Shown here piece by piece: positions 1 through 19,791 of a stretch of 64,000 bases of DNA. The DNA lies in the NCBI RefSeq assembly GCF_024362325.1, contig NZ_CP101497.1, positions 310,001 through 374,000 of the forward strand, given 5' to 3'. The translations under genes were made by a program, and so were the position numbers. Positions within the stretch are counted from its first letter, which is position 1. Every line of letters starts with the position of its first letter. Source of the stretch: Microcella humidisoli. GTDB lineage: Bacteria > Actinomycetota > Actinomycetes > Actinomycetales > Microbacteriaceae. The notes under the pieces were generated by a model. The model had not been told where the DNA came from. It ran no database searches and saw only the letters and a list, made by a program, of their open reading frames with translations.

Positions 1-269
1 GCGAGCGCGAGAAGGGCATCCAGCCCCTCAGCACTCTTGAGATCGAGCACGATGGATCGCTTGTTGCGGTTGTAGGCGGCGAACTGCGGGCTGTAGCCCG
101 ACTTGCCCTCCCACCGGCGCATCGGGTCGCCCTCGGGCGCCTCGACCTTGATGACATCGGCGCCCATGTCGCCCAGCAGCTTCGCCGCGTAGGGTCCGGC
201 GATGTACTGGCCGAGCTCGATGACACGGATGCCGGCGAGCGGGCCAGCCGGCGTGGGATCAGGAGACAT
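1..269 (-). CDS. CaiB/BaiF class III CoA-transferase, N-terminal part
   Basis: This family moves CoA between carboxylic acids in the cytosol. Only the first 89 or so residues are present; the gene runs off the left edge. The N-terminus reads PLAGIRVIELGQYIAGPYAA and is followed by the LLGDMGADVIKVE segment, both hallmarks of the family, then GDPMRRW and NRNKRSIVLDL. The catalytic Asp lies beyond the window. The ATG overlaps the end of the upstream dehydrogenase gene by 11 bases, so it is the last visible gene of the minus-strand unit and probably activates or exchanges a carboxylate product of the catabolic island. The acid substrate cannot be told. Confidence 0.85.
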   Translation of the reverse strand, partial: MSPDPTPAGPLAGIRVIELGQYIAGPYAAKLLGDMGADVIKVEAPEGDPMRRWEGKSGYSPQFAAYNRNKRSIVLDLKSAEGLDALLAL

Positions 270-1272
270 CGATGACGACCTTTCCGAGTCGGTCAGGGTG
301 CGAGAAGCGCTCGTAGGCGCTGGTGATCGTGGCGAGCGGGTAGCGGCTGTCGATACGAGGCACGACGGCACCCGACGCGGTGAGCGCAATGGCATCACGG
401 ATATCGGCGTAGTCGGCGCTTGCCGAGCCGACGAGACGGTGCCGACCGAGGTAGAAGCGGCGGAGGTCTACCCGCAGATCGGTGGAGACACTCGCCGAGC
501 ACACGGAGAGCGTTGCGCCCCAGCCGAGCACACCGAGCAGAGCGCTCGCGACATCGGCGCTCCCGGTCGTGTCGAGTGCGAGGTCGACTCCGTCGGGTGC
601 GAGCTCGCGCACGCGGGCGACGATCTCCGAAGAATCCGCCACGATCGATTCGACTCCGTCGAGTGCGGGGGCGGGTCGACGGGAGACGGCCACGACTCGC
701 GCTCCGCGGTGTCGCGCGTACTGCGCCGCGACGTCACCGAGGACCCCTGTCGCGCCGGAGATGACGACCGTCTGCCCCGTGTGCACATCGCCGGCCGCGC
801 GAAGCGCCTGCAGCACGATGGGGAGGCTGTGAAGCATGCCGACGGCGAGCGCCGCATCGAGCTCACCGCGCGGGATGGCGCTGGCGGCAGGCACGGCGAC
901 GTACTCGGCTGCTCCGCCGTCGCGATGCACGCCGATCACGGTCTGCTGAGGGCAGCGCGCCTCAGACCCGCGACTGCAGAAGTCGCATGAACCGCACGGG
1001 ATGTTCGGCTTGACAACGACAGGCTCACCGATTCGGGCGGCGTTGACGCCGTGACCGACGGCGTGGATCACGCCGACCGGATCGATGCCAGGAATGCGGG
1101 GCAAAGCGGCGGACGCCCCGGGACCGATGCCAGCGATGACATTGAGGTCCAGTTGATTGACGCCCAGCGCCTCGACTTCGACCAGTACCTCGCCGGCGCG
1201 GAGCACCGGAAGCGGTACGGGCGACACTGCTAGTCGCTCGAGACCGTGCGCGGTCAGCAGTGCGGCGAGCAT
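259..1272 (-). CDS. Medium-chain dehydrogenase/reductase (zinc-type ADH superfamily)
   Basis: 337 residues, a normal MDR length: an N-terminal GroES-like domain, then a Rossmann domain with a VVISGATGVLGDVAAQYA nucleotide-binding loop. The structural zinc lobe is intact (CGSCDFC followed by a fourth Cys in SEARC). The usual catalytic zinc ligands look absent: the Cys of the GVCGTD motif is replaced in GVNQLD, and the His of the GHE motif in PGIDPVG. It may therefore be a zinc-independent quinone or enone reductase that keeps the structural zinc. I chose the ATG at 1272 because GGAGG precedes it by 3 bases. A longer frame reaching 1476 would run through the operator at 1319-1333 and is rejected. 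The substrate is unknown. Confidence 0.8.
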   Translation of the reverse strand: MLAALLTAHGLERLAVSPVPLPVLRAGEVLVEVEALGVNQLDLNVIAGIGPGASAALPRIPGIDPVGVIHAVGHGVNAARIGEPVVVKPNIPCGSCDFCSRGSEARCPQQTVIGVHRDGGAAEYVAVPAASAIPRGELDAALAVGMLHSLPIVLQALRAAGDVHTGQTVVISGATGVLGDVAAQYARHRGARVVAVSRRPAPALDGVESIVADSSEIVARVRELAPDGVDLALDTTGSADVASALLGVLGWGATLSVCSASVSTDLRVDLRRFYLGRHRLVGSASADYADIRDAIALTASGAVVPRIDSRYPLATITSAYERFSHPDRLGKVVIDVS

Positions 1273-1318
1273 GAGCCTCCGATGGCGAGGGGGCGAGCGT
1301 GAGCCGCATCGCCCTTTC

Positions 1319-1352
1319 TGGATACAGTATCCATTACTCGGTTCCCTGTCCA
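1319..1352 (-). promoter_or_regulatory. Promoter with GntR-type operator ahead of the MDR dehydrogenase gene
   Basis: A perfect 15-base palindrome, TGGATACAGTATCCA, lies at 1319-1333. Read on the minus strand it contains the -10 box TACTGT (1329-1324). A -35 box TGGACA (1352-1347) lies exactly 17 bases upstream. A protein bound here would cover the -10 box, which suits repression. It sits directly after the stop codon of the amidohydrolase gene (1334), so the dehydrogenase and CoA-transferase genes have their own promoter as well as possible read-through. The same palindrome recurs at five other promoters of the island; the GntR regulator at 13549-14274 is the obvious candidate ligand. Confidence 0.75.
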
Positions 1353-2671
1353 GCCACCGCGACGTCCCCCTCGCCCGTTCCTCCGACCGCCCAGCCTGCG
1401 CGGGCGAGTAGTGCGCGCAGCGCAGCGTGCGACCGTGCTCGCGCGGCGTCGAGCCCGGTGAGGTCGACTCCCCCACGTTTCACCCAACGGCCATCCACGA
1501 GGACATGATGCACGTCTTCGACACCGCAGGCCATGACGAGCGAGAGCACGGGGTCGAGAGCGACGGCGAATCCGAGTCGTCGAGCATCCACCACCACGAT
1601 GTCAGCCCGAAGCCCCGGCCGCACCCGTCCGACCACGTGGTCCCACCCCAGGTCGCGGGCGCCCTCGCGCGTCGCGAGCGACAGCGCCGTGCGAGGGGTC
1701 ACAGGGGCGCCACCACGAGCGTTGCCGAGGCGGACCACCGTGCGCATCTGCTCGAACATGTCGGCGCGAGCGGGCAGCGCGAGCGAGTCGGTCGACAGGC
1801 TCAGCTGCACTCCGGCATCGAGGGCAGCGACGATCGGAGGTGCCCCCATCGATCCGAGCTCGGTCGCAGGACTCAGCGAGATGGAGACACCTCGATGAGC
1901 GAGCAATCTCAGCTCCTCCTCGTCGGCATCGACCGCGTGAACGACCTGAAGCGCCGGCACGAGAAGACCCGCAGAATCCATCGCGCGAAGATCGGCATAG
2001 CGGTCGACGTCGGATCGACGACCGCCCATGTGCATGGTCATCGGCAGCCCGAGGCGTGCTGCCGCCTCCCACTCGGCGGCGAGCACCGCCGGCTCAGAAC
2101 GGGTGGGCCCACGCACGGCGAGCCCGAGATCGCTCAATGGCCCGACTCCGGCGCTCGCCCATCGCTCGAGGTCGTCGAGATCGGCCGTCCTGGTCGCGTC
2201 CCAGGCGTCGGGATTGCCATAGGCGAGCCGCGTGCGAAGACCGCTCACTCGATGCGCGGCCGCCGTCGCCTCGGCATAGTCAGGGGAACGCAGGTTGTGG
2301 TGCCAGTCCACGACAGACGTGATGCCGCTTGCTGCCGACTCCCACAATGCCGCGAGCGTCGCCGCCGCAGTGTCATCGGCAGTGACGAGCGCTGCCAGCC
2401 GGCGCTTCACCGGAAAGTAGGCACGCTCGCCGACCCCCGTGGTGAGACCCCGGAAGAACGAGTTCCAGAGGTGCTGATGCGTGTCGATGAATCCTGGCAT
2501 CACGAGCATGCCGCGGCAGTCGACCTCGTCGGCACCCTCGGGCGCTTGCAGGTCGACGCCGACCTCCGCGATGCCGCCGTCAATGAGCAGCACGTCGGCG
2601 TCGGGTATCTCGCCGAGCTCGTCGTCGAGGGTCAGCACGTACCCGCCCCGCAGGAGCGTCACCTCAGTCAT
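1334..2671 (-). CDS. Amidohydrolase of the cytosine deaminase / TrzN / SsnA group
   Basis: 445 residues in the metal-dependent amidohydrolase superfamily, which deaminates or dechlorinates N-heterocycles in the cytosol. Visible metal ligands are HQH in PGFIDTHQHLWN near residue 65, a His in MTMHMGG near 215, a His in LQVVHAVD near 245 and an Asp in LSLSTDSLA near 295. The C-terminal beta-sandwich closes with GLRADIVVVDARR. The ATG at 2671 overlaps the stop of the OsmC-like gene by 4 bases, so the two are probably translationally coupled. Its company with transport and oxidoreductase genes suggests it acts on the compound imported by this locus. Whether it deaminates, dehalogenates or does something else cannot be read from the sequence. 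Confidence 0.82.
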   Translation of the reverse strand: MTEVTLLRGGYVLTLDDELGEIPDADVLLIDGGIAEVGVDLQAPEGADEVDCRGMLVMPGFIDTHQHLWNSFFRGLTTGVGERAYFPVKRRLAALVTADDTAAATLAALWESAASGITSVVDWHHNLRSPDYAEATAAAHRVSGLRTRLAYGNPDAWDATRTADLDDLERWASAGVGPLSDLGLAVRGPTRSEPAVLAAEWEAAARLGLPMTMHMGGRRSDVDRYADLRAMDSAGLLVPALQVVHAVDADEEELRLLAHRGVSISLSPATELGSMGAPPIVAALDAGVQLSLSTDSLALPARADMFEQMRTVVRLGNARGGAPVTPRTALSLATREGARDLGWDHVVGRVRPGLRADIVVVDARRLGFAVALDPVLSLVMACGVEDVHHVLVDGRWVKRGGVDLTGLDAARARSHAALRALLARAGWAVGGTGEGDVAVAGQGTE

Positions 2672-3252
2672 CGCGACAGCTCGCGCTCGTCGTCACTGCG
2701 CATACTGTCCTCGCGTTCATCCAGCAGGATGCTGTCCCCTTGCCGCACGAGCAGCCTCAGTGGCACCGCCGCGGCGAGCAGCGAGGCCACGGGGCACCGA
2801 GCCACTCCTGCGCGGACGGCCTCGATCAGCGCGCCGTCGTCGACGGCGTCGGACGCGCACGCGATGTCCAGCACGAACCACGGCGGGTGCGGCGCCGCGG
2901 CACCGATGCCGAGCTCGCCCGCCATGTCGATCATGGTGCGAGCATCCACGGTGTCGGTGCGTGCGTCGACCGACCGCTCGGCGAACTCTTTCGCGATCCA
3001 GCCCTGCGAGCAGAACGCGAGGGCGGCGAGCAGATAGCGCAGGGGGCTCGGCGCAGAGCCGGAACCTCCGCGCTCGATCGCTTCATCGCTCTCGAATCGG
3101 TGCGACCGCCCGTACTGCTCGAACTCGGCTGCACCATGCACGCCCTCCACGATCGTCGCGCGCAACCACGGACGCATGATGCCCGCCTCCGGGTCGGCAG
3201 CGATGCGCGATCGGAGCTCATCCATCCCCCGATCAGCAGTGTTCGGCTGCAT
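2668..3252 (-). CDS. OsmC/Ohr-family protein
   Basis: 194 residues. The OsmC fold is recognised by SAPSPLRYLLAALAFCSQG, with the first redox Cys near residue 80, and by a second Cys in GVARCPVASLL, matching the family's resolving or peroxidatic pair. Family members reduce organic hydroperoxides or handle thiol adducts. The ATG at 3252 has GGAGG five bases upstream; the open frame reaching further back crosses the divergent promoter and is rejected. It is the first gene of the minus-strand unit OsmC-amidohydrolase, downstream of the operator at 3342-3358. In this setting it may detoxify a peroxide or reactive intermediate, but that is inference. Confidence 0.75.
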   Translation of the reverse strand: MQPNTADRGMDELRSRIAADPEAGIMRPWLRATIVEGVHGAAEFEQYGRSHRFESDEAIERGGSGSAPSPLRYLLAALAFCSQGWIAKEFAERSVDARTDTVDARTMIDMAGELGIGAAAPHPPWFVLDIACASDAVDDGALIEAVRAGVARCPVASLLAAAVPLRLLVRQGDSILLDEREDSMRSDDERELSR

Positions 3253-3341
3253 CGACGCCTCCTGTCTACGGCGCGGCTGGCCCGAGGCTGGCACGCGGCA
3301 TATCACGATTTGGTGACCGTACGTAGACAGGAAACCACATT

Positions 3342-3358
3342 CTGGATACCGTATCCAG
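3342..3358. promoter_or_regulatory. GntR-type operator between the divergent OsmC-like and binding-protein genes
   Basis: A perfect 17-base palindrome, CTGGATACCGTATCCAG, lies in the 172-base gap between the divergent starts at 3252 and 3425. It is the best copy of the motif found across the island. On the plus strand TACCGT (3348-3353) can be a -10 box, with TAGACA (3324-3329) 18 bases upstream as the -35. On the minus strand the same core gives TACGGT. One bound dimer could therefore block both promoters. Confidence 0.75.
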
Positions 3359-3424
3359 CATTCGGGCAACGACGCTCCCCCACCCCGGTCACGCGTCATG
3401 CCCCTGTACAGGAATGGGAGACAC

Positions 3425-4516
3425 ATGAGCACACTGTCCCGCAAGTGGGGAGTCGCCGTCGTCGCCGGCGTCTCCGCCGCAGCGCTGTTGGCCGGCTGCA
3501 CCGCCCCGGCCGACCCCGGAACCGAAGAACCGGCCGGTGGGGTCACCTTCCCCGAAGGCGAGATCGGTCCCGCCGAAGACGCCGACATCACCGTCGCCAT
3601 CCCTTTCCCCGACATCACGATGTACTCGATGTACGAGGTCGCCACGGCGAAGGGCTGGTACGAGGAGGAGGGTCTCACCGTCGAGGTGATCACCGCCGAC
3701 AACGTCGCCGCTGCCGTGTCGAGCGGAAGTGCCGACATCGGCGTCGACAGCGCCGGCACCGTGATCGAGGCGATTCGCGGTGGCGTCGAGGCCGAGCTGC
3801 TCAGTGGTCACTACTGCCGCCAGAACTTCGACTTCGCCGTGCAGCCCGACATCACCTCGGTCGAGCAACTCGATGGCACCGCCGTCGTGCTCGCTGGTCA
3901 GGCTGGTGACCCCGCCGAGTTCCAGCGTGCACTCGCACTCAAGGAAGCCGGTTGGGACCTCTCGACGGTCAACGTCGAGATCGTCTATCCCGGCCCCGAC
4001 TCGGCCACCTGGCGCGAGTTCTTCGTCAACGACCGGGTCAGCCTGATCCCGTTCTACGGCGACGACCGTCCGGCGCTCGAGGAGTACGGGGCGAACATCG
4101 TGGTGGAGTCGCTGCAGAACTGGGCGAACGACTTCCACATGGCCGGCTCGGCATGGCTGCAGGAGAACCCCAACAGCGCCGTGCGCTTCTTGCGCGCGAC
4201 GATGAAGGCTGTCGACTTCATGGTGGCCCCCAGCGCCGGCGAGGTCCCGACGAACAAGGACGAGGTGCTCGACATCTTCGAGGCCGCTGACTTCGACGTC
4301 GCCGACCTGCGCGTGCAGGACAACCCGTGGGTTCTCGACGGCCACCTGGCCTGCCCGAACCTCTACGTGGACGAGGAGGCCTGGCAGATCACGATCGACA
4401 CCCAGAGCCTGCAGCCGCTCGACTTCGATGAGAACGTCGACCTCGGCTACCTGCTGAAGGCTCAGGAGCTGCTGGGCATCGACAACGAAGGACCCAGCGA
4501 GATCGCCTACCCGTAG
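3425..4516 (+). CDS. NMT1/THI5-type ABC transporter substrate-binding lipoprotein
   Basis: 363 residues. A lipoprotein signal ends in the lipobox LLAGC, followed by a Pro/Glu-rich linker, so the protein is anchored outside the membrane. The mature part has the SsuA/TauA/ThiY-like pattern: DITVAIPFPDITMYSMYEVA, KGWYEEEGLTVEVI, then GSADIGVDSAGTVIEAI and LSGHYCRQNFDFAV. Such proteins bind sulfonates, nitrate, pyrimidine precursors or small aromatic compounds. The ATG at 3425 is preceded by GGGAG and gives a complete signal peptide; the upstream in-frame start at 3398 would add unneeded residues. The matching permeases and ATPase are at 5224-7723 on the other strand. The ligand is unknown. Confidence 0.85.
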   Translation: MSTLSRKWGVAVVAGVSAAALLAGCTAPADPGTEEPAGGVTFPEGEIGPAEDADITVAIPFPDITMYSMYEVATAKGWYEEEGLTVEVITADNVAAAVSSGSADIGVDSAGTVIEAIRGGVEAELLSGHYCRQNFDFAVQPDITSVEQLDGTAVVLAGQAGDPAEFQRALALKEAGWDLSTVNVEIVYPGPDSATWREFFVNDRVSLIPFYGDDRPALEEYGANIVVESLQNWANDFHMAGSAWLQENPNSAVRFLRATMKAVDFMVAPSAGEVPTNKDEVLDIFEAADFDVADLRVQDNPWVLDGHLACPNLYVDEEAWQITIDTQSLQPLDFDENVDLGYLLKAQELLGIDNEGPSEIAYP

Positions 4517-4566
4517 AGCTGTAGCAAGCACCTGAGAGATTCACCCGCTGGGTCCCTCCGCATCAT

Positions 4567-4603
4567 AAGGGGGCCGGACGTCGAGACGACGTCCGGCCCC
4601 CTT
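4567..4603. terminator. Strong terminator hairpin after the binding-protein gene
   Basis: A perfect 17-base-pair stem (4567-4583 with 4587-4603) closes a 3-base loop (AGA) and is followed by CTTCTT. Its AA/TT ends make it usable in both directions. It lies 50 bases after the stop codon at 4516, inside a 308-base gap (4517-4824) that otherwise holds only the second hairpin at 4776-4811. Confidence 0.85.
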
Positions 4604-4775
4604 CTTCGTGTCTGAGAGTGTCGTCGTTCGACCTCCGCTCTCCCCCTCGCCCACGGCCAAAGCCAGCCCTGCTGCACCTGGGTCTCCCACGCTTCGCGGC
4701 GCAGCGCCGAGGCAGGTCCCAAGGCTCCCCTGCACGAACCAGACGCAGCGTCCGGCACGTCAGCAGGCATGACAC

Positions 4776-4811
4776 AGGCGGGCACCCCTGTGTGATAAGA
4801 GGTGCCCGCCT
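4776..4811 (-). terminator. Terminator hairpin ending the minus-strand catabolic operon
   Basis: An 11-base-pair perfect stem, AGGCGGGCACC (4776-4786) with its complement at 4801-4811, encloses a 14-base loop. It begins 13 bases after the stop of the RidA-family gene in the direction of transcription. There is no clear U-run, so it may act with the stronger hairpin at 4567-4603 further on. Confidence 0.65.
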
Positions 4812-4824
4812 CTGGCGGTGTCAA

Positions 4825-5220
4825 TCAGGCGAGCGCGGCAACCGCCTCGACTTCGATGAGGTACTCGGGATTCGCGAAGCCGGCGACCTGCACGAGTGTG
4901 CTGGCCGGGAAGGGCTCCGAGAAGTACTGCGAGCGCACGGCACGCAGTTCGGCGCGGTGGTCCAGGTAGCTCTCGCCGACGTAGACCGTCACCTTGATGA
5001 TGTCGGCCAGAGTGCCACCCGCAGCGGCCATGACGGCTCCGAGGTTCTGCCAGAGCTGTTCCGACTGCGCGACGATGCCGTCGGGCATCGTGCCGTCGGG
5101 GCGATAGCCCATGATGCCGCTGAGGTACACCAGCGATCCGGGGTCAACGATCTTGACCGCTTGGCTGAAGTCCCACGTGGGCGCGTAGATCCCCTCGGGC
5201 ACCACCGTCTCACGGTGCAT
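4825..5220 (-). CDS. RidA/YjgF/YER057c/UK114-family protein
   Basis: 131 residues, the usual length of these trimeric enamine/imine deaminases and their specialised relatives such as RutC. Family features include LVYLSGIMGYRPDGTM, a LGAVMAAAGGTLADIIKVTVYV core and the C-terminal LIEVEAVAALA. The Arg that binds the substrate carboxylate in true RidA (RIEIEA) is a Leu here (LIEVEA), which argues against the housekeeping 2-aminoacrylate role and for a pathway-specific one. It is the last gene of the operon, starting 3 bases after the permease stop. Processing of an acyclic imine or peracid-type product, as for RutC, is inference. Confidence 0.85.
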   Translation of the reverse strand: MHRETVVPEGIYAPTWDFSQAVKIVDPGSLVYLSGIMGYRPDGTMPDGIVAQSEQLWQNLGAVMAAAGGTLADIIKVTVYVGESYLDHRAELRAVRSQYFSEPFPASTLVQVAGFANPEYLIEVEAVAALA

Positions 5221-5223
5221 GAA

Positions 5224-6060
5224 TCAGCCCGCCTTCACGGTCGCGCGATCGTCATGCCACGGCGCGAAGCGCTTGCGCAGCAGCCCGATGACCGTGAGCG
5301 TGAGATTGGCGATGATGACCATCACGATGACCATGGCGATCGCGTCGTCCATCTGGAAGTCGAAGGCAGCCCGCTCGAGCAGGTGGCCCAGGCCGCCCGC
5401 ACCCCCGAGAAACTCACCGAGCACTTGTCCGGTGAAGCCCAAGGCGGCTCCGCGCTGGATGCCGACCAAACTGAACGGCAACGTGCCCGGAATGAGCACC
5501 TTGACCCCCAACGCGATGCCATTGGCGCCGAATACGCGCCCCGCGTTGACGAGCGACCGGTTGACGGTCAGCGCGCCTTCCATGGTGTTGAGCATGATCG
5601 GGAAGACGGCGAGCAGCAGCACGAGAGCGATCTGCGACGCCGCACCCAAACCCAGGATGAGGATGATCAGCGGGGCAAGGGCGACCTTCGGTGTGGAGTA
5701 CAGCAGCCACAGGAAGGGCGCGACGGTGAAGCGCAGCACAGGGAACCACCCGACTGCGAGTCCGACCACCACGCCGATCACGACAGCGAGCACAACGCCG
5801 ATCGCCAGGTTGCCGAGGCTGTAGCCGAAGGCCGACCAGAAGTCGGGCCGCACGATGAGTTCGAGGAACGAGGCGGCAACGGCGGTGGGTGGCGGGAGGA
5901 AGACTGCCGGGACGAGCTGGAGCCAGCTCACCGCCGCCTCCCAGAGCAGCAGGATCGCGAGCACGACGCCCGCAAGGAGCAACCGCCAGCGGCCCTCCCC
6001 GGAGCCTCGCCTCGCGGATCGACTGGGGCGAACGATCTTGAGCGGCATCGTGGCGGTCAC
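5224..6060 (-). CDS. ABC transporter permease, SsuC/TauC type (second)
   Basis: 278 residues with about six membrane segments and a typical BPD_transp_1 domain. The EAA-like coupling loop reads MEGALTVNRSLVNAGRVFGANG. The start is the GTG at 6060, which shares a GTGA overlap with the stop of the preceding permease gene; an in-frame ATG 12 bases later is possible. With the neighbouring permease and ATPase it forms a heterodimeric importer fed by a binding protein, most likely the lipoprotein at 3425-4516. Two non-identical permeases are less usual than the single SsuC of sulfonate systems and resemble some pyrimidine or riboflavin importers. Confidence 0.88.
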   Translation of the reverse strand: MTATMPLKIVRPSRSARRGSGEGRWRLLLAGVVLAILLLWEAAVSWLQLVPAVFLPPPTAVAASFLELIVRPDFWSAFGYSLGNLAIGVVLAVVIGVVVGLAVGWFPVLRFTVAPFLWLLYSTPKVALAPLIILILGLGAASQIALVLLLAVFPIMLNTMEGALTVNRSLVNAGRVFGANGIALGVKVLIPGTLPFSLVGIQRGAALGFTGQVLGEFLGGAGGLGHLLERAAFDFQMDDAIAMVIVMVIIANLTLTVIGLLRKRFAPWHDDRATVKAG

Positions 6061-6899
6061 GAGGCGGCCCCCTTCCGACGGTTCCAGGGCGCGAGCCAGC
6101 GCTCGACGAGACCGACGAGCTGCGTCATCGAGACGCTCCAGAGAACGATGAGCATGATCGCCGCGAACGACTGATCCGTGTTGTAGGTATTGGCCGAGCG
6201 GATGATGACGGCGCCCATGCCGACTGAACTTCCGGTCAGCTCTGCGACCACCATGCCGATCGTCGCCAGCACAGCACCCTGGCGCAGACCGGCGAACAAG
6301 TACGGCACCGCGGCTGGCAGCAGGATCTTGCGGTAGACGTCCATTCGCGAACCGCCGTAGACACGAGCAGCACGGATGAGCGACGGGCTTGTCGTCCGAA
6401 TGCCCGCGGCGAGATTCAGCATGATCGGGAAGATCGCGCTAATGACGATGAGAAAGATCACCGGCCCCGTGCCGAAGCCGAACCACGCCTTCGTGAGTGG
6501 CTGGTAGGCGACGGCCGGCGCGGCATACAGGGTCCAGGCGATCGGGCCGAAGACGCGATCGACCGGTACCGAACTGCCCATGAGCAAACCGAGCGGCACA
6601 CCGATCGCGACGGCGATTGCGAACCCGGTGAGCCACGACTGCACCGACACGGCAGCGTTTTGCGCCAAGGTTCCCTGTTGCACGAGTTCGGCGAATCCCT
6701 GTGCCACGTCGAGCGGCGGCGGGAAGAAGACGGCGTTGACGAGGCCAAGCGTGCCCACGAGGAACTGCCACAGCAGGAGGAGCAGGACAACTTCGACAGC
6801 GATGAGGAGCGCTCGACCCCGAGGGCTCAGTCCTGCGATGAAGCCGGCGACTCCCCGTTGCGCACGCAGCCCCGTGGGGGCGGCGAAGAGGGAGCTCAC
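6057..6899 (-). CDS. ABC transporter permease, SsuC/TauC type (first)
   Basis: 280 residues, with a long N-terminal membrane segment (LLIAVEVVLLLLLWQFLVG) and then the BPD_transp_1 core with coupling loop LAAGIRTTSPSLIRAARVYG. I chose the GTG at 6899 because it forms a GTGA overlap with the ATPase stop (6896-6898), as at the next junction. The longer open frame to 6953 would overlap the ATPase C-terminus for no reason. It pairs with the permease at 5224-6060 in the cytoplasmic membrane. The coupled overlaps suggest fixed subunit ratios. Confidence 0.86.
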   Translation of the reverse strand: MSSLFAAPTGLRAQRGVAGFIAGLSPRGRALLIAVEVVLLLLLWQFLVGTLGLVNAVFFPPPLDVAQGFAELVQQGTLAQNAAVSVQSWLTGFAIAVAIGVPLGLLMGSSVPVDRVFGPIAWTLYAAPAVAYQPLTKAWFGFGTGPVIFLIVISAIFPIMLNLAAGIRTTSPSLIRAARVYGGSRMDVYRKILLPAAVPYLFAGLRQGAVLATIGMVVAELTGSSVGMGAVIIRSANTYNTDQSFAAIMLIVLWSVSMTQLVGLVERWLAPWNRRKGAAS

Positions 6900-7723
6900 G
6901 ATCCCTGTCCTCCCCGTGATGCTGCAGTGGCCTCGTTCTGGAGCACGTCCCACAAGTGGTCGCGCAGCTCCAGGTACCTCGGGTCAGACTGCGCCCCACG
7001 CTCTGACCGCGGCCGAGGGAGATCAACGGTGATCTCCTCGAGAACCGCGCCGGGGTGGCTCTTGAACACAACGATGCGGTCACCCAAGAGGATGGCCTCT
7101 TCGATCGAGTGCGTGATGAAGATGACGGTCTTGCCGGTAGCGGTGATGAGTTTCTCGATCTCATCGCGCATGACCTCTCGGGTGAGAGCGTCGACGGCAC
7201 CGAGGGGCTCGTCCATGAGCAGGATGCGAGGCTCAGCGACGATGGCCCGCGCGAGTCCGACCCGCTGCTGCATGCCGCCGGACAGCTCCCGCGGGTACGA
7301 CTGCTCGAAGCCTGCGAGACCCACGAGTTCGATCGCGTTCTGCACGCGCTCGCGCCAGTCGCCCGAGTTCAGTGTCGACTGCATTTCGAGCCCGAAACGC
7401 ACGTTGTCGAAGACCGAGCGCCATGGCAGCAGCGCGTAGTCCTGGAAGACGACGGCGCGGTCAGGGCCCGGCCCGGTCACGATGCGTCCGTCGACGGTGA
7501 CGGTGCCCTCCGTGGGCTGCACGAGGCCGGCGATGACGTTCATGACGGTCGTCTTGCCGCAACCGCTCGGGCCCAGGACGGTGACGAACTCGCCCTCGGC
7601 GATGTCGAGGTTGACACCTTCGACGGCCATCAGGCTCGTCCCGGTGCGGGCGATGTCGTATCGCACCGTCACGCCGCGCACCTCGATCAGCGGCGCAGCA
7701 ACGTTCTCTGCGGAGTCTGGCAT
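6896..7723 (-). CDS. ABC transporter ATP-binding protein, SsuB/TauB type
   Basis: 275 residues. Walker A is GPSGCGKTT near residue 52, the Q-loop sits in VVFQDYALLPWRSV, the signature is LSGGMQQRVGLARA, Walker B is ILLMDEP, and the switch His is in VIFITHSIEEA. The DYALLPWRSV stretch is typical of nitrate/sulfonate/taurine-type importers. The ATG at 7723 follows the hairpin-bearing gap of 102 bases after the monooxygenase gene, while the downstream permease is translationally coupled. It energises import of the pathway substrate. Confidence 0.9.
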   Translation of the reverse strand: MPDSAENVAAPLIEVRGVTVRYDIARTGTSLMAVEGVNLDIAEGEFVTVLGPSGCGKTTVMNVIAGLVQPTEGTVTVDGRIVTGPGPDRAVVFQDYALLPWRSVFDNVRFGLEMQSTLNSGDWRERVQNAIELVGLAGFEQSYPRELSGGMQQRVGLARAIVAEPRILLMDEPLGAVDALTREVMRDEIEKLITATGKTVIFITHSIEEAILLGDRIVVFKSHPGAVLEEITVDLPRPRSERGAQSDPRYLELRDHLWDVLQNEATAASRGGQGS

Positions 7724-13543: not shown

Positions 13544-13548
13544 GCGTG

Positions 13549-14274
13549 TCAGTTCGCGGCGCCGTCGCGGCGGATCATCTGGAGCACTCCATCGCGCACG
13601 GTGCCGAGGTGCTCGCGGAGAGCCGCCTTCGCGGCGTCGAGATTGCCCGTCACGACGACGTCAACGAGCTCGCGGTGAGAGTGGTCGTGCGCACCGGCGA
13701 CGCGCCAGCCGAGTACATAGAGGCCGACCTTGAGACGCAAGTCTTCAATGAGCTCCCAGGCCAGTGGGTTGTTCTCGGCGTCATAGAGCTCGGCGTAGAA
13801 CTCTTCGCGGGCACGGAGGAAGCCCGCGCCCTCTTCTTTCGCATCCGAATCGTCGGCGAGCGCGCGGAGTCTGTCACAGCGCGCGGGCGTCATCGTGGAC
13901 ATCGAGCGCACGAGAGCGTGCTCTTCGAGGAGCTGCCGCAGCTGGTAGATCTCGGTCACCTGCTCGACGGTGAGCGATCGCACGACAGCACCCTTGCGGT
14001 CGTGCATCTCGACGAGACCGTCCGCTTCAAGTTGAATGAGCGCCGAACGCACCGGGACACGACTCACTCCGATCGCCTCGGCGAGAGTCTCTTGGCGCAG
14101 CTTCTGGCCCGGCTCGAACACTCCCGAAAGAATGGCATCGCGAAGAACGTCGTAGACCATCGCCCCGACGGAGCGGTAGCCGACGGCGGCTTGGCTGGCG
14201 AGGCCCTGCAGGCCGTCGAGGCCCGCACCACGGGCGGAGCTCGGCACGTCGGCCGGTGCTTCCTGGCTCGTCAT
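13549..14274 (-). CDS. GntR-family transcriptional regulator with FCD ligand domain
   Basis: 241 residues. A winged helix spans about residues 37-105 (VYDVLRDAILSGVFEPGQKL, then LAEAIGVSRVPVRSALIQLE), followed by an all-helical FCD domain with HRELVDVVVTGN and a C-terminal EHLGTV, the usual sites of metal or acid-ligand binding. FadR/VanR-type GntR proteins bind palindromes of about this size as dimers. The ATG at 14274 has GGAGG six bases upstream; the open frame to 14487 would cross both operators. It heads an operon with the MFS gene and is divergent from the F420-0 importer. Two motif copies in its own promoter region imply autoregulation and control of the whole island. Confidence 0.88.
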   Translation of the reverse strand: MTSQEAPADVPSSARGAGLDGLQGLASQAAVGYRSVGAMVYDVLRDAILSGVFEPGQKLRQETLAEAIGVSRVPVRSALIQLEADGLVEMHDRKGAVVRSLTVEQVTEIYQLRQLLEEHALVRSMSTMTPARCDRLRALADDSDAKEEGAGFLRAREEFYAELYDAENNPLAWELIEDLRLKVGLYVLGWRVAGAHDHSHRELVDVVVTGNLDAAKAALREHLGTVRDGVLQMIRRDGAAN

Positions 14275-14324
14275 CGGAATCCTCCAGACATCGACGCTAC
14301 GGGTATGCAGTCTAGGCAGGTTAT

Positions 14325-14339
14325 CGAATACCGTATCCC
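14325..14339 (-). promoter_or_regulatory. GntR-type operator at the regulator's own promoter
   Basis: The sequence CGAATACCGTATCCC matches the island palindrome at 12 of 14 arm positions. On the minus strand it contains TACGGT, which can be the -10 box of the regulator gene, with a leader of about 50 bases to the ATG at 14274. Confidence 0.65.
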
Positions 14340-14353
14340 TGAGTATGCATCGT

Positions 14354-14389
14354 GATGACTGAGTGTCGCAGACATGTATACTGGATACA
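14354..14389 (+). promoter_or_regulatory. Promoter and probable operator of the F420-0 importer
   Basis: The -35-like GATGAC (14354-14359) and -10 TATACT (14377-14382) are 17 bases apart. The -10 is embedded in TGTATACTGGATACA (14375-14389), a weaker copy of the island palindrome whose arms keep 6 and 5 of 7 positions. Binding of the GntR regulator would block the importer genes, tying cofactor uptake to substrate catabolism. Confidence 0.6.
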
Positions 14390-14505
14390 AGACCCACGGG
14401 AAACCTGTCCCGTTGTTCTCCCGTCCGGACTGGGACGGGGTGGTCGCTGGCGTCGAGCCGGTTGTGCACCTCATCACCCCTGCCCACACCCCGGATGGAG
14501 CATCC
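14390..14505 (+). promoter_or_regulatory. Structured leader of the F420-0 importer mRNA (possible)
   Basis: About 115 bases separate the predicted start of transcription from the ATG at 14506. Two small hairpins can form: ACGGGA (14396-14401) with TCCCGT (14408-14413), and CCCGTCC (14420-14426) with GGACGGG (14433-14439). The strand TCCCGT could also pair with the later GGGACGG, so the two folds may exclude each other. I recognise no known riboswitch class; cobalamin and FMN consensus elements are absent. Confidence 0.3.
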
Positions 14506-15492
14506 ATGGTCTACTCGTTCACCACCTCTCTCGCACTCCGTCTCTCCGCGCTGGCCGCCATTCCCGTGGTCGCGCTCAGCGGGTGCGCCGCTTCGACCTC
14601 AGCCGAACCGGCGCCGAGCGACGCCACCGCGGTCACCGTTGACAACTGCGGCACCGAGGTCGTCTTCGACTCGCCGCCGCAGCGCATCGTCACCGTCAAG
14701 TCGTCAACAACCGAGCTACTGCTCGCGCTCGGTGCCGGCGATCGCATTGTGGGGCAAGCCTTCCCTGACGGCCCGATTCCGGAGCAATGGGCGCCCGCGG
14801 CCGACATTCCCGTGCTCTCCGACAGTGCTCCTGGCCAGGAGGCCGTGCTCGAGCTCGAGCCCGATCTCATTTTCGCGGGATGGGAGTCGGTGTTCAGCGC
14901 CGACAGCTCGGGCGAGCGCGACAGCTACGCAGCGCTGGGCATCCACACCTATGTCGCGCCGAGCGCCTGCAAAGACCCCACGTACCAGCCTGACCGCATG
15001 ACGGTCGATGAGCTCGAGCGCCAGATCACTGAGCTCGCCGAGATCATCGCCGTCGACCCGGCACCGTTCCTCGCCGAGCAGCGGGCGACCCTCGACGCCA
15101 TCTCTGCCGACACGCGCGAGCTTCGAGCCCTGTGGTACTCCTCGGGCACCGACACCCCGTACGTCGGTGCCGGCATTGGTAACCCGCAGCTGATTCTCGA
15201 CCTTGTTGGTCTCGAGAATGTCGCCGCCGACGTCGCCGACACCTGGACGTCGATGAGTTGGGAAGCCATCGTCGACGCCAACCCCGACGTCATCGTGCTC
15301 GTCGACGCGACCTGGAACAGCGCCGCTGACAAGATCGCGCTGCTCGAGTCGAACGCCGCAACGGCCGAGCTCGACGCCGTGCAGAACTCGCGCTATCTCG
15401 TGATTCCTTTCGCCTCGACCGAGGCCGGAGCCCGCACCGCCTGGGCCGCAGCCGACCTCGCTCAGCAGCTCGCCGAGATGCCGATGGACTGA
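14506..15492 (+). CDS. Proposed F420-0 ABC transporter substrate-binding lipoprotein
   Basis: 328 residues. The lipobox is ALSGC, followed by a TroA/BtuF-like fold (VVFDSPPQRIVTVKSSTTEL, LLALGAGDRIVGQAF, LELEPDLIFAGWESVF, NPDVIVLVDATWN). From memory, this clade in the TIGRFAM set is defined in actinobacteria as a three-gene cassette with a permease and ATPase. It occurs with cofE in organisms that use F420 but lack most of its biosynthesis, hence the proposed ligand F420-0. The same gene set is present here. The ATG at 14506 has GGAG five bases upstream. Without context it would be called a heme/siderophore/cobalamin-type binding protein. Confidence 0.82.
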   Translation: MVYSFTTSLALRLSALAAIPVVALSGCAASTSAEPAPSDATAVTVDNCGTEVVFDSPPQRIVTVKSSTTELLLALGAGDRIVGQAFPDGPIPEQWAPAADIPVLSDSAPGQEAVLELEPDLIFAGWESVFSADSSGERDSYAALGIHTYVAPSACKDPTYQPDRMTVDELERQITELAEIIAVDPAPFLAEQRATLDAISADTRELRALWYSSGTDTPYVGAGIGNPQLILDLVGLENVAADVADTWTSMSWEAIVDANPDVIVLVDATWNSAADKIALLESNAATAELDAVQNSRYLVIPFASTEAGARTAWAAADLAQQLAEMPMD

Positions 15493-16571
15493 TGAGGATG
15501 CTCGCACTTGGTACGCAGCCCCCGGGCGTGGCCGGCACGACCGGCGCGTCGGGCAGCCGGCGACGACGCATCACCGTCGTCGCGCTGCTCGGCGGGGTGG
15601 TGCTGCTCGGTGCGCTCATCCTCGGAATCGTCGTCGGCGCGGCCGACATCGGCCCGGCCGAGCTCGCGCGTATCCTGCTCGATCGACTCACCGGCGCCGA
15701 GCCCGAGTCGGCGCTGCGGTCGAGCATCGTGTGGGAGCTGCGACTGCCGCGCGTGCTTACCGCCGCTGCCGTCGGCGCGGGGCTCGGGCTCGCCGGCACC
15801 ATCATGCAGGCGGTGACGCGCAACCCTCTCGCCGACCCCTACTTGCTCGGGCTGAGCTCTGGAGCATCGCTCGGCGCCGTCGCCGTCATCGTGCTCGGAG
15901 TCAGCCTGCTGCTGCCGGTCGCCGCCTTCCTCGGCGCTCTGGTGGCGCTGGCGGCGACGCTCGCGATCGCGCGCCGCGGCGGCGCGATCACTCCGGTGCG
16001 CACAGTGCTCGCCGGCGTCGCCGTCTCCGCGATGCTCGGTGCGCTCACGAGCGGAGTCATCTTCTGGAGCGCCACCGGCGACTCGTACCGCGAGATTCTG
16101 GGCTGGCTACTGGGTACGCTGGGCGCCGCCGACTGGTCGAGCGCGGCGATCGCGGGCGTGGCGCTGCTCGTCGTCGGCGGGGCGCTGCTGACGACAAGTC
16201 GCACGCTCGACGCGTTCGCGTTCGGTGAGCGGTCGGCAATGACGCTCGGCATCGATGTGCCGCGCATCCGCCTCATCCTGCTCGTCGCCACCGCGCTGCT
16301 GACGGGAGCGATGGTCTCGGTCAGCGGCGCGATCGGCTTCGTGGGTCTCGTTATGCCGCACATGGTGCGACTCGTCGTCGGACCGGGGCATCGCGCACTC
16401 CTCCCCCTTGTCGTCGTCTGGAGCGCAGCCTTTCTGGTTCTCGCCGACACGCTCGCGCGCACGGTGCTCGACCCCCGCGAACTGCCGGTCGGCGTCGTCA
16501 CGGCGCTCGTCGGCGCCCCCGTCTTCGCCGCGCTCCTCGCGCGGCGCACAACGATCGGAGCTCGATCATGA
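15492..16571 (+). CDS. Proposed F420-0 ABC transporter permease (FecCD/BtuC family)
   Basis: 359 residues and about ten membrane segments. Landmarks are WELRLPRVLTAAAVGAGLGL, AGTIMQAVTRNPLADPYLLG and the late GAIGFVGLVMPHMVRLVVGP loop that contacts the ATPase; all are typical of FecCD permeases. The ATG shares one base with the stop of the binding-protein gene (TGATG) and the 3' end overlaps the ATPase start by 4 bases, so the cassette is tightly coupled. The assignment to F420-0 rests on the cassette context with cofE and fgd. Confidence 0.83.
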   Translation: MRMLALGTQPPGVAGTTGASGSRRRRITVVALLGGVVLLGALILGIVVGAADIGPAELARILLDRLTGAEPESALRSSIVWELRLPRVLTAAAVGAGLGLAGTIMQAVTRNPLADPYLLGLSSGASLGAVAVIVLGVSLLLPVAAFLGALVALAATLAIARRGGAITPVRTVLAGVAVSAMLGALTSGVIFWSATGDSYREILGWLLGTLGAADWSSAAIAGVALLVVGGALLTTSRTLDAFAFGERSAMTLGIDVPRIRLILLVATALLTGAMVSVSGAIGFVGLVMPHMVRLVVGPGHRALLPLVVVWSAAFLVLADTLARTVLDPRELPVGVVTALVGAPVFAALLARRTTIGARS

Positions 16572-17446
16572 CCTGGTTCCCGTCTCGTTCTTCCGCGCCG
16601 CAGGCCGATCCTGCCGACGCCGGACTGCGGGCCCGATCGGTGAGCGTTGCCGCGGGGAGCACGATGCTCGTCGACGACATCGACCTCGAGGCCGCAGCCG
16701 GCACCGTCACGGCCGTCGTGGGCCCCAACGGCGCCGGCAAGTCGAGCGTCCTCGCGGCGCTCGCGCGGCTGCACGGCACCGGCGTCGTCGAACTGGGCGG
16801 CGACGACCTCTCGACGATGACTCGCCGACGTCGCGCTCAGCTCGTGGCGATGGTGCAGCAGTCGACCGAGACCGACATCGAGCTCACGGTGCGAGATGCC
16901 ATCGCGCTCGGCCGCACTCCCCACGTCGGTGCCTGGGGTGACGACAGCGAGAGCGGCATCGTGGACGAGTCCCTCGACGCCGTGGGGATGACGGCTTTCG
17001 CCGACCGCGCTCTGCTGTCGCTCTCCGGCGGCGAACGTCAGCGGGTAGCGCTGGGCATGGCCCTCGCGCAGCGGCCGCGTCTGCTCATCGTCGATGAGCC
17101 CTCGAACCACCTCGACATCGCCGCACAACTGAGCATCATGAGCCTGCTGCGACGATTGGCCTCAGAGGGCGTGACCGTGGTCGTCGCGCTTCACGATCTC
17201 GCGCTTGCTCTCGAGTTCAGCGATAACGCCCTCGTGCTGTCGCGGGGTCTGCGCATCGCGCACGGCCGCACGCTCGACATCCTCAGCGATGAACTCATCA
17301 GCACGGTCTACGGCGTCGACGCGCGCATTCTCGTCGATGCCGCAACCGGCCGCCGCGCCATCAGTTTCGGCGCACGCCGTGAATCACCGAGCGTGGCCCC
17401 CGCGTCGCAACGTCAGGAGTCGCGCGCCGCGAGCCCGGCGCGGTAG
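16568..17446 (+). CDS. Proposed F420-0 ABC transporter ATP-binding protein
   Basis: 292 residues of the FepC/BtuD type. Walker [10 protein letters not shown] is near residue 55, the Q-loop is in VAMVQQSTE, the signature is [14 protein letters not shown], Walker B is [12 protein letters not shown] and the switch His is in [11 protein letters not shown]. The C-terminal tail past residue 275 is low in complexity. The ATG overlaps the permease stop (ATGA). The last 34 bases overlap, tail to tail, with the 3' end of cofE on the other strand. Confidence 0.85.
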
Positions 17447-18198
17447 CCCTCGTCCCAACCCTGCTGGCGTGCCTCCGCGGTTCCGAGGCTGAACATGTCG
17501 TCCGAGGCGCCCCGCACGAGTTCGCGCCCACCGTGCGCCTCGGCGTCGACGAAGCGCGCAAGACCGCGTACCACGGCGACGGGTACTCCGCTCGACTTGC
17601 CCTTGACGAGGTCGGCGGCGGCCGCGATCTCGTCGCCGACCGCGGGAGCCGTCACTTCCAGCAGCTTGCCCGCTGCGTCGCGCTGACCGCGGAGATCGTC
17701 AAGAAGTCGGACCCCGCTCGCGCCGATGACGATATCGGTCTGTCCTTCGCGCCACGGTCGACCGGCCGTGTCGGTAATGATGACGCCGACCATCCCGCCA
17801 ACGGTCGCCTCCATCGCCATCCTGATGGACGCTGCGCTCTCATCGGGATGGAGCGGCAACAGAAGCACGGTGCCATCGGCCGTGTTGCTGGCGTCAACTC
17901 CCGCCGCGGCCATGACCAACCCAAGCTTGTTCTCAACAATGCGGGTCACACGTCCCCGATGTTCCCGGGTCGCCACGACGCGGACGGTTTCCGAGCGAAT
18001 CGCGTCGTCGCGGTCGTTCGCATGCACCAACCGCCCTTCGGCCTTGCTGACGATCTTGCTGGTCACCGCGATGATGTCGCCGGGTCGTGCGACACCGTTC
18101 ACCCTCTCGGCGATGATGAGCGGCAGGTCATCCCCCGGCACGATCTCACCGATACCGTCGACGGTGAACACACTGAGGTCAGGATGCGCGCCCGTCAT
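17413..18198 (-). CDS. cofE: Coenzyme F420-0:L-glutamate ligase (CofE)
   Basis: CofE adds gamma-linked glutamates to F420-0 in the cytosol with GTP, making the retained, working cofactor. 261 residues, the length of stand-alone CofE; many actinobacterial FbiB proteins are longer because they carry a fused nitroreductase-like domain, absent here. Motifs are [19 protein letters not shown], the metal-binding GVDASNT region and [19 protein letters not shown]. Next to a transporter proposed for F420-0, a lone CofE fits salvage: import the untailed precursor, then trap it by glutamylation. The gene lies 107 bases after fgd on the same strand, and GAGAGG precedes the ATG. Confidence 0.9.
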
Positions 18199-18305
18199 GC
18201 CGGAACCTCTCCGGTGTCGACGCGGTGCTGGGCACCGTGACGGGTTACTGAACCGCGGTCGCCCTGTGGTCGACCGAGCAGCGTGTCGGTGCGCACGAGC
18301 AAGAA

Positions 18306-19331
18306 CTAGCTCAGTGCCCGCAATCGAGGAGCGAGGTCGCGCTCGAAGAGCTCGAGGAACCGGCGCTGGTCGTGGCCCGGCGCGTGAAACACGAGGTGGT
18401 TCATGCCGTACTCCACGTACTTCGCGATCTGCGCCACGACCGCATCGGGGTCGTTGCCGACGATCCAGCGCTTGGCGATCTGCTCGATCGGCAGGGCATC
18501 CGCGGCCTTCTCCATCTCCATGGGGTCGGTGATGTCATGCTTCTGCTCGGCCGAGAGCGAGAGGGGCGACCAGAACCGCGTGTTGTTGAGCGCGACGTCG
18601 TAGTCGGTGTCGTACGAGAGCTTGATCTCGATCATGCGGTCGACGTCGTCGGGGCTCTTGCCCGCTTGCTCGATGCCGTCCATCACGGCCGGAATCAGCT
18701 GCTCGGTGTAGAGCTCGACGCCCTTGCCCGAGGTGCAGATGAAGCCGTCGCCGACCTTGCCGGCGAACTTAGCGACGAACGGGCCGCCCGCGGCGACATA
18801 GATCGGCACGGGGTGCTCGGGGCGGTCGTAGATCGACGCGTCGTGCGTCGAGTAGTACTGGCCGCGGTAGTTGACGCGATCTTCGGTCCAGAGCTGGCGC
18901 ATGAGTTCGATCGACTCACGCAAGCGTCCGAAGCGCTCCTTGAACTCAGGCCACTCCTGCTCGCCCGCCCCCTTGAAGCCCGTGGCGACCTCGTTGAGCG
19001 CCTCGCCCGTTCCGACGCCGAGGAAGATGCGGTCGGGGTACATGACGCCCATCGACGCGAAGGCCTGGGCGAGCACCGCCGGGTTGTAGCGGAAGGTGGG
19101 CGTCATGACCGAGGTGCCGATGCGGATGCTCGACGTGCGCTCGCCGACCGCGGCCATCCACGTCAGCGAGAACGGAGCATGCCCGCCGGTGTGGCGCCAG
19201 GGCTGGAAGTGGTCGCTCACGGCGACCGACTGCATGCCGTGCGCCTCTGCGGCCACGGCGATCTCGACGAGCTCGCGGGGGTCGAACTGCTCGGCAGAGG
19301 CCTTGTATCCGAGGGTGAGGGGGAGTGTCAT
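18306..19331 (-). CDS. fgd: F420-dependent glucose-6-phosphate dehydrogenase (Fgd)
   Basis: Fgd oxidises glucose-6-phosphate to 6-phosphogluconolactone and reduces F420 to F420H2, the main source of reduced F420 in actinobacteria. 341 residues, close to the mycobacterial enzyme, with strong similarity throughout: [30 protein letters not shown] (catalytic His 41 and Trp 45), [15 protein letters not shown] (catalytic Glu), [15 protein letters not shown] and [19 protein letters not shown] chose the ATG at 19331 by alignment to known Fgd. The in-frame ATG at 19340, 8 bases after the -10 box, could be used on a leaderless transcript. It supplies reducing power to the F420-dependent enzymes of the island. 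Confidence 0.95.
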
Positions 19332-19343
19332 GAGATCCATTCT

Positions 19344-19358
19344 TGCATACTGTATCCA
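19344..19358 (-). promoter_or_regulatory. GntR-type operator at the fgd-cofE promoter
   Basis: TGCATACTGTATCCA differs from the island palindrome at one arm position only. On the minus strand TACAGT (19354-19349) inside it can be the -10 box, 8 bases before the ATG at 19340. Cofactor reduction would therefore share regulation with the catabolic genes. Confidence 0.72.
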
Positions 19359-19383
19359 GAATCCGCTATTGGTCTTTGCGGAA

Positions 19384-19791
19384 TTACTCGGCGATCGCCG
19401 AGCGCAGCAGGTCGACCGACGAGACGGCGGCCGTGCGCCACTCGGCGAGCTCATCCTCGCCCGCGTCCTCCCACAGCTCGTAGAGCTCGGAGCCGTCGGG
19501 CTGCACCACGCGCTCCGCCGCCGTGAGGATGAGCTCGTACGCGGCATCATCCAACTGCGTCGCGAGCAGTCGGATGTCCACCTCATCCAGCTCGGCGGGC
19601 GGGTCGATGCGACCGAGCGCCGCGAGCGCGACCTCGACGAGCGCGAGCGCCACCGAGCCCTCCGGAGCCTCGAGGTAGTCGCCGGCGACCGCCTCGCGCA
19701 ATTCGTCGAGCGTGAAGCTGCCATCGACCAACGCGTCGACCGCGTCGAGAGCGTCGTCGTTCTCGAACGACCCTGATCCCCATGCACCCAT
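19384..19791 (-). CDS. DUF4259-type small protein
   Basis: 135 residues, acidic and helical. The N-terminal [20 protein letters not shown] is the signature of a widespread small family of unknown function (DUF4259), often beginning MGTWGxGPFxND. I chose the ATG at 19791 because it restores that N-terminus; a GTG 18 bases upstream is possible. No Shine-Dalgarno sequence is visible. Its 3' end lies next to the fgd promoter and it marks the boundary between the island and the housekeeping block. The function is unknown. Confidence 0.72.

Follow-up and report, generated by a model that had tools for sequence, protein, structure and literature searches.

The nearest described relative of the locus analysed here is the putative F420-0 importer cassette, defined by the families TIGR03868, TIGR03869 and TIGR03873. 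The makers of these models reportedly noted an arrangement of importer, cofE and fgd in the marine actinobacterium PHSC20C1, and in our comparison the cassette, CofE and Fgd do lie together in that genome (locus L133). We have analysed a window of 64,000 nucleotides, positions 310001-374000 of the single-contig genome (2.65 Mb) of Microcella humidisoli (Microbacteriaceae), and its left part holds an island with a similar arrangement, in which an importer binding protein and permease that clear the curated cut-offs of TIGR03868 and TIGR03869 stand near cofE and fgd. However, this group is joined here to a catabolic block by shared operators, the host makes F420 de novo, and the gene profile of many carriers of the cassette points to FO as the cargo. 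We consider that the island is probably one regulon that supplies F420 and uses it for the breakdown of an N-heterocycle, and that catabolism, deazaflavin import, maturation and reduction appear to form a conserved regulon.

Other described systems share individual features with the island. In the excerpts considered here, picrate (2,4,6-trinitrophenol) degradation in Rhodococcus and Nocardioides likewise employs an F420H2-dependent luciferase-like enzyme, a hydride transferase, for catabolism. The enzymes are nevertheless different, as the island has hydantoinase-like and LigAB proteins. Picrate clusters also contain an F420 reductase gene; we know of none with a cofactor importer or with CofC or CofE. 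The reductive pyrimidine pathway (dihydropyrimidine dehydrogenase, dihydropyrimidinase and ureidopropionase) would resemble the island in its order of reduction and then hydrolysis, and its cyclic amidohydrolase is of the same superfamily as that of the island (CycAmh). However, CycAmh scores 219 bits against a dihydropyrimidinase cut-off of 393 bits, a luciferase-like protein takes the place of the dehydrogenase, and the island has an extra ring-cleavage branch. Similarly, the Rut pathway pairs a luciferase-like enzyme (RutA) with a RidA-type protein (RutC), but the RidA-like protein of the island reaches only 41 bits against the RutC cut-off of 169, and RutA is not among the best 25 families of either luciferase-like protein (LLM1 and LLM2); to our knowledge, the Rut pathway has no F420 genes.

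The initial annotation of this DNA knew of no described locus in which import, maturation, reduction and use of the cofactor are joined under one regulator. That was too broad for the importer-cofE-fgd group, which had reportedly been noticed earlier, but the joining of this group to a catabolic block by shared operators seems to be new. Endosymbionts of the genus Mycetohabitans make FO that acts on their fungal host, and a deazaflavin may be shared outside the cell there; the parts of that work considered here describe neither an importer nor a catabolic role. A literature search on F420 and FO transporters, uptake, salvage and auxotrophy found no description of a deazaflavin importer. In the main text of a 2021 review of F420, 'salvage', 'uptake' and 'auxotroph' are absent, and the single mention of a 'transporter' concerns a possible exporter.

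The case for common control begins with an operator-like site, GGATACNGTATCC. We scanned for it first in 104 kb (contig 270001-374000) and then genome-wide. In the 104 kb there are five copies with up to two mismatches, all of them intergenic and in or bordering the island, where they stand before five transcription units (Table 1). At no more than one mismatch the site occurs in just four places in the genome, all in the island or at its edge, which bears out the shared promoter motif of the initial annotation. Behind the operator that precedes the zinc-type alcohol/quinone dehydrogenase gene (ADH) lies the unit ADH-CaiB-amidohydrolase_2-LigB-LigA-cofC2, of which the last four genes continue in line to the left of CaiB, so that the regulated operon reaches 3.6 kb further left than the window. 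CofC2, a second CofC, passes the equivalog cut-off of TIGR03552 (116.9 against 105 bits). No separate operator was found before CofE2 in the host genome and, since this gene sits between the importer and fgd, we infer that it is controlled with them. Gene order and site placement therefore support a single operator that would join the catabolic enzymes, the importer, the regulator and Fgd, the maturation genes being brought in through conservation. In this form the proposal of one regulator for catabolism and F420 genes is supported, CofE2 being the member without a site of its own.

The operator is conserved in relatives. When named genomes were scanned, 79 loci emerged; a true LLM1 (at least 60% identity; L199-L202, at 28-33%, were left uncounted) is present in 75. 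These span Agromyces, Microbacterium, PHSC20C1, Ruania, Jiangella, Mycolicibacterium, Pseudonocardia, Actinomadura, Solirubrobacter and others. At the thresholds used, the alpha/beta hydrolase is present in 74 and CycAmh in 72 of the 75, and the importer falls within 26 of the fetched stretches. The gap between NMT1 and ADH, counted where the NMT1 relative is at least 60% identical, holds exact GGATACNGTATCC in all 26 named loci with this pair, in two copies in 22 of them; the rest of those 26 loci contains no exact copy, and neither do the remaining 53 named loci (968 kb), five of which have ADH next to a distant NMT1 relative. Between the importer and the alpha/beta hydrolase, 26 of 26 loci likewise carry a site that differs from GGATACNGTATCC or from the variant GGATCCAGAATCC by no more than one mismatch. 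Among importer loci that lack the block, a site precedes the binding protein in only 2 of 92 (80 with a binding protein over the cut-off and 12 below it; L040 and L070 show less than 500 bp before this gene). A site before LLM2 was seen in three of four named loci with both block and importer, and in none of the 34 visible cases in importer loci without the block.

The family sample agrees with this picture. Among 299 genomes of the Microbacteriaceae, 85 have a binding protein over the cut-off, and the block lies beside the importer in four of 84 importer loci (G254, G131, G245 and G235, the last split over two contigs). Operator sites are present in all four, and identity to the host, where the gene was seen, is 84-87% for LLM1, 77-79% for CycAmh and 88-91% for amidohydrolase_2. 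In Leifsonia sp. Root4 (G165) block and importer are on different contigs. LLM1 itself was found at E 1e-70 or better in seven of the 299 genomes, the host included, one of them at 52% identity. In Microbacterium sp. K24 (G235), a genome without an FbiC match, a one-mismatch site stands ahead of LLM2-CofE-Fgd-CofC-CofD, which places a route from FO to F420H2 behind the operator. Furthermore, among block loci without the importer a site is present in 10 of 13 that have a GntR relative of at least 45% identity, against 8 of 36 that do not (Fisher P = 8e-4).

It could be argued that chance or shared transfer has brought the F420 genes next to the catabolic block, with no common control. Actinobacterial gene neighbourhoods are often mixed, and the site at 12234 is weak. 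With the operator filling both kinds of gap without exception and being so rare where the block is missing, we regard this as most improbable. Several observations do weigh against a common regulon. With two mismatches allowed, the genome contains 19 sites against 21 for the reversed control; by score the 12234 site is therefore not above chance, and it is backed by its position and by an exact match to TTCTGGATACNGNAT, which is common to three other sites. Five loci with NMT1 relatives of 29-31% identity (L169, L170, L179, L181 and L185) lack the exact operator, and in block loci without the importer only one of six visible LLM2 genes is preceded by a site. When six decoy palindromes were searched one at a time, they occurred in 0, 0, 1, 2, 8 and 10 of the 49 no-importer loci, as compared with 18 for both operator forms together, so that two of the six reach 8-10 loci. 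Finally, the genomes compared are related and the counts are not independent.

The host has no need of an importer for its F420. A full de novo set was located 13-25 kb to the left of the window (contig 285-297 kb): cofD (contig 285401-286426), fbiC (a fused CofG/CofH, ~287.3-290.05 kb), cofC1 (contig 290517-291137) and cofE1 (contig 295776-296597), all over their cut-offs. The two CofC copies share 37% identity and the two CofE copies 73%. As cofD, fbiC, cofC1 and cofE1 are all present, the host is by gene content an F420 prototroph, with an extra CofC, an extra CofE and an importer, and salvage as a necessity in this organism can be dismissed. The earlier inference of salvage thus holds only in part. 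The initial annotation had itself proposed a genome-wide search for cofC, cofD/fbiA and fbiC, and held that complete de novo genes, combined with a cassette moving another ligand, would tell against it; the first half of that combination is what the genome contains. Carriers of the TIGR03868 cassette are typically, although not by strict definition, without F420-0 synthesis, and here FbiC, CofD, CofC and CofE are all present. That import is dispensable in the host weighs against a role for it in cofactor supply.

Across the family, however, the importer and de novo synthesis hardly ever meet. FbiC (threshold E 1e-70) is matched in 63 of the 299 genomes, in 18 over the cut-off and in 45 below it but mostly as long fused frames. 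Importer and FbiC occur together in one genome, that of the host, against 17.9 expected (hypergeometric P = 1e-9, uncorrected for kinship). In six other genera, species with the importer and species with FbiC coexist, never with both in one sampled genome, and in all six sampled genus mates of the host FbiC is present while the importer goes unmatched at E 1e-60. FbiC status was also tested in 50 of the 75 block genomes: over the cut-off it is present in none of the 24 with the importer beside the block, and in 14 of 26 where the importer is absent from the fetched stretch. Two of the 24 (L131 and L184) do hold a sub-cut-off FbiC-like match, and the other 12 of the 26 lack FbiC as well as a nearby importer, both of which count against this exclusion; for these 12 an importer is known elsewhere only in L169 (Leifsonia sp. 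Root4, that is G165), the others not having been searched. The sub-cut-off FbiC-like matches (233-338 bits; 45 family genomes together with G304 and G322) are mostly fused frames of ~770-1250 aa, and may be either divergent FbiC or a paralogue. Two proteobacterial loci with LLM1 from metagenome-assembled genomes (L192 and L186) both hold CofD, one of them with CofE and the other with an Fgd relative, which speaks for use of F420 by LLM1.

The nature of the cargo is suggested by the remaining F420 genes, tallied in 80 of the 85 importer genomes after exclusion of five with more than 200 contigs. CofE is present in all 80, CofD in 50, CofC in the same 50 (44 over the cut-off and six at 91-101 bits against 105; the host is included) and CofG in the host alone. 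With the host set aside, CofC, CofD and CofE thus persist without FbiC or CofG in 49 of 79 importer genomes, which points to import of FO. In the remaining 30, CofE is the sole member of the set (CofC matches at chance level, 26-27 bits, occur in two), which fits import of F420-0. The family name favours F420-0 throughout, with CofC2 a leftover or serving de novo synthesis, and both the scores over the TIGR03868 and TIGR03869 cut-offs and the 30 genomes with CofE but without CofD, over-cut-off CofC, CofG or FbiC are in its favour. We think it unlikely all the same: CofC and CofD, kept together in those 49 genomes, would be idle; CofC2 belongs to the operon behind the ADH operator; and FO is the form typically present in supernatants of F420 producers, according to the portion of that report considered here (PMC11917521). 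The F420-0 cargo of the initial annotation therefore retains the family cut-offs and loses its clarity, given the CofC of the island and the FO-like majority.

FO as the only cargo can be dismissed as a general rule, because in 30 of 80 carriers, without CofD and without over-cut-off CofC, the cargo cannot be FO alone. CofD status is also scattered on the binding-protein tree, where well-supported branches force five to seven changes, and FO may cross membranes unaided; these points too weigh against FO import. (The tree includes 12 fetched members of 17 sub-cut-off importer matches, at 206-330 bits, which stand outside the 85 and within the 92-locus set.) The interleaving of CofD states, which differ even inside the genera g63, g55 and g30, would suit one broad deazaflavin importer that takes both FO and F420-0, its use being set by the later genes that each lineage kept. 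This is a real possibility, although we place it a little below an even case; shifts of ligand after gene loss would look identical. The simplest reading of the profiles is that the family takes FO in most carriers and F420-0 in some, or both everywhere. That the cassette might instead carry a siderophore or some other unrelated ligand, or else the substrate of the catabolic block, is suggested by its fold families (PF01497/PF01032), which are those of iron-siderophore and B12 importers. This seems quite improbable to us in view of the universal presence of CofE, the near-absolute avoidance of FbiC and the 80 of 84 fetched importer loci that have no catabolic block.

Our model is built directly on gene content, on operator placement and conservation, on the insertion site and on co-occurrence profiles, and from these we infer the ligand, the substrate, the order of reactions, the identity of the repressor and the control of CofE2. 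The GntR/FCD protein would act as a repressor that binds GGATACNGTATCC-type operators and releases them upon meeting the substrate or a metabolite. The NMT1-type ATP-binding cassette (ABC) importer would bring in the substrate, LLM1 with F420H2 would reduce the ring, the hydantoinase-like CycAmh would open it and the alpha/beta hydrolase, the third member of this triad, would hydrolyse the product further, with the ring-cleavage branch (ADH, CaiB, amidohydrolase_2 and LigAB) handling the aromatic part. Meanwhile the BtuCD-type importer would take up a deazaflavin, most likely FO and possibly F420-0 too, CofC2 and CofE2 with the resident CofD would convert FO to F420, and the resident fgd would provide for its reduction. 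In the host the import arm may add cofactor as demand rises; in FbiC-less relatives with the importer it would be the sole source.

A wider proposal, for which we judge the balance to be even, is that a conserved regulon switches on substrate import, breakdown, FO import, maturation and reduction together, that FO is a vitamin traded to FbiC-less actinobacteria, that the 'F420-0 importer' family for the most part takes up FO, and that resident cofactor genes are captured by the block through operators set in front of them, as at fgd. If the FO reading is true, those 49 other importer genomes would live on the FO of their neighbours and F420 would be a shared vitamin; a catabolic regulon would also govern the supply of its own rare cofactor.

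The island appears to have been assembled from parts. The genus mate G280 is contiguous across host positions 306350|328313, which marks an insertion of 22.0 kb (~contig 306351-328312) that ends on the right at the final codons of fgd. The fgd gene is resident, being 89% identical to that of G280 and 86% to those of G213 and G249 and syntenic in all three, and among these four genomes only the host fgd carries an upstream operator. Of the extent 1-19400 given to the island initially, the left border therefore moves out with the operon, and fgd comes to lie just outside the inserted segment. An 18-base near-repeat (17/18), with one copy at the left border of the island (306347-306364) and the other towards the 3' end of fgd (328392-328409; window 18392-18409), is perhaps a trace of the event. 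The G+C content of the island is 67.4%, that of its surroundings 70-72%. Carriers of the catabolic block have very similar copies of it (LLM1 82-89% in named Microbacteriaceae and 95% in the metagenome-assembled genome L124). CofE2, however, groups with the host genus (98% support, seven rows, FastTree), and in a quick tree the host binding protein falls outside the Agromyces/Microbacterium-island clade, apart from other block carriers. Simple inheritance of the importer with the Agromyces and Microbacterium islands is unsupported by either tree and, since CofE2 and the binding protein group in this way, the island seems to be a mosaic of a widely transferred catabolic block and cofactor genes of other descent that share operators. 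L124 has almost the same island, with single genes 83-98% identical; a search for FbiC gave no match in this genome, which may be incomplete.

More can be said about three of the enzymes. LLM1 has F420_Rv2161c as its best NCBIfam family, at 153.3 against 166.9 bits. That it stays under the cut-offs of the NCBIfam families listed, with luciferase-like proteins of the flavin mononucleotide type among the next matches, counts against F420 dependence, but the structures matched best by a profile built from 31 orthologues are those of F420-dependent Mer. CycAmh aligns with the L-hydantoinase 1gkr at 3e-64 and carries the HxH and late Asp motifs; the best 25 of 68 NCBIfam families are all below their cut-offs. 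Of the two luciferase-like proteins that were initially counted as catabolic, both are present, but LLM2 may be a cofactor-maturation gene instead, because a member of its family lies immediately upstream in 35 of the 43 cofE genes at importer loci that have enough flanking sequence to tell (L006:6974-7972 is listed with LLM2 as a TIGR03557-type case of this kind). We also considered LLM2 as the missing dehydro-F420-0 reductase. The host CofE copies (261 and 273 aa) extend over just the initial portion of the FbiB-type model of 449 positions and so lack the second part of FbiB, in keeping with this idea; the pairing with cofE is, however, commoner in CofD-minus genomes (21 of 22, against 14 of 21 in the rest), so that LLM2 is no more than a candidate for this role.

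Profile searches with NCBIfam and Pfam found every gene class of the initial annotation in its place in the window, with the PRK08204-like amidohydrolase and the importer ATPase below their cut-offs; the latter scores 279.5 against 372.4 bits with TIGR03873, yet this is its best of 188 families. The importer binding protein is akin to the solved structure 4mlz (2e-87), and the regulator has both the DNA-binding domain and the FCD domain expected of a GntR/FCD protein. LigB and LigA are of the ring-cleavage dioxygenase type, LigA at 23 bits being under the Pfam cut-off of 25.3.

Table 1. Features of the island, its operators and the adjoining fgd gene (positions in the window)
Feature	Position	Strand	Remarks
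Island part within window	1-18312		Whole island ~contig 306351-328312; starts ~3650 bases left of window
CaiB family III CoA-transferase	1-248	-	PF02515, 353 bits on longer gene; 3' rest beyond window edge
Zinc-type alcohol/quinone dehydrogenase (ADH)	262-1272	-	PF08240/PF00107; heads ring-cleavage operon
Operator GGATACAGTATCC before ADH	1320-1332		Exact
AmhA, deaminase-type amidohydrolase	1337-2671	-	PF01979; PRK08204 349 bits, under 391 cut-off
OsmC-like protein	2671-3252	-	PF02566
Operator GGATACCGTATCC between OsmC and NMT1	3344-3356		Exact
NMT1-type ABC substrate-binding protein	3425-4513	+	PF09084
RidA-like protein	4828-5220	-	PF01042; TIGR00004 under cut-off
Two ABC permeases and ATPase	5227-6060, 6060-6911; 6899-7723	-	PF00528, PF00005; presumed NMT1 partners
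LLM1, luciferase-like oxidoreductase, probably F420-dependent	7829-8800	-	PF00296; F420_Rv2161c best but below cut-off
CycAmh, hydantoinase/allantoinase/dihydroorotase-type cyclic amidohydrolase	8800-10200	-	Nearest solved chain 1gkr
Alpha/beta hydrolase (UilS/S15-like)	10194-11141	-	PF02129; NF047920 136/400 bits
LLM2, F420_G6P-family luciferase-like protein	11190-12173	-	TIGR03557 245/210 bits; cofE companion in relatives
Operator variant before LLM2 and catabolic operon	12234-12246		Two mismatches to GGATACNGTATCC, exact to TTCTGGATACNGNAT
Major facilitator superfamily transporter	12344-13543	-	PF07690
GntR/FCD regulator	13552-14274	-	PF00392 71 bits and PF07729 62 bits; presumed operator reader
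Operator GAATACCGTATCC between GntR and importer	14326-14338		One mismatch
Putative deazaflavin (FO or F420-0) importer, binding protein	14506-15489	+	TIGR03868 433.2 vs 392.4 bits
Putative deazaflavin importer, permease	15492-16568	+	TIGR03869 442 vs 437.35 bits
Putative deazaflavin importer, ATPase	16568-17443	+	TIGR03873, below cut-off
CofE2, F420-0:gamma-glutamyl ligase, second copy	17416-18198	-	TIGR01916 225.3 vs 180.65 bits, passes
Fgd, resident gene, not inserted	18309-19331	-	TIGR03554 616.6 vs 420 bits, passes; synteny in mates
Operator GCATACTGTATCC, 14 bp before fgd start codon	19345-19357		Absent from three genus mates

Beside the island, at contig 305600-306259, lies the gene of a 219-aa protein that has no Pfam or NCBIfam match at E 0.001; this stretch shows 76% DNA identity in the mate G280. 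Next to cofD and fbiC, contig 275-285 kb carries a TIGR03842 luciferase-like protein (578/295 bits), a TIGR02033 dihydropyrimidinase (523/393), a nitrilase-family amidase and an NMT1-type ABC importer, with an aminotransferase slightly further on. By its gene families this cluster resembles a reductive pathway of pyrimidine breakdown in which the reductase depends on F420. For 49 of 84 importers the fetched stretch includes a relative (at least 70% identity) of its luciferase-like protein.

Family and PDB comparisons did not yield the substrate of the island and gave only hydantoinase-, Mer-, protocatechuate/gallate-dioxygenase- and resorcylate-decarboxylase-like kin. The operator and the triad together nevertheless offer a handle for finding it. 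Possible clues come from Solirubrobacter (L187:10996-17617), where the triad is followed, as judged by eye, by genes for a thiamine-diphosphate-enzyme-like protein, an NMT1-like importer, an amidohydrolase_2-like protein and a Rieske-like protein.

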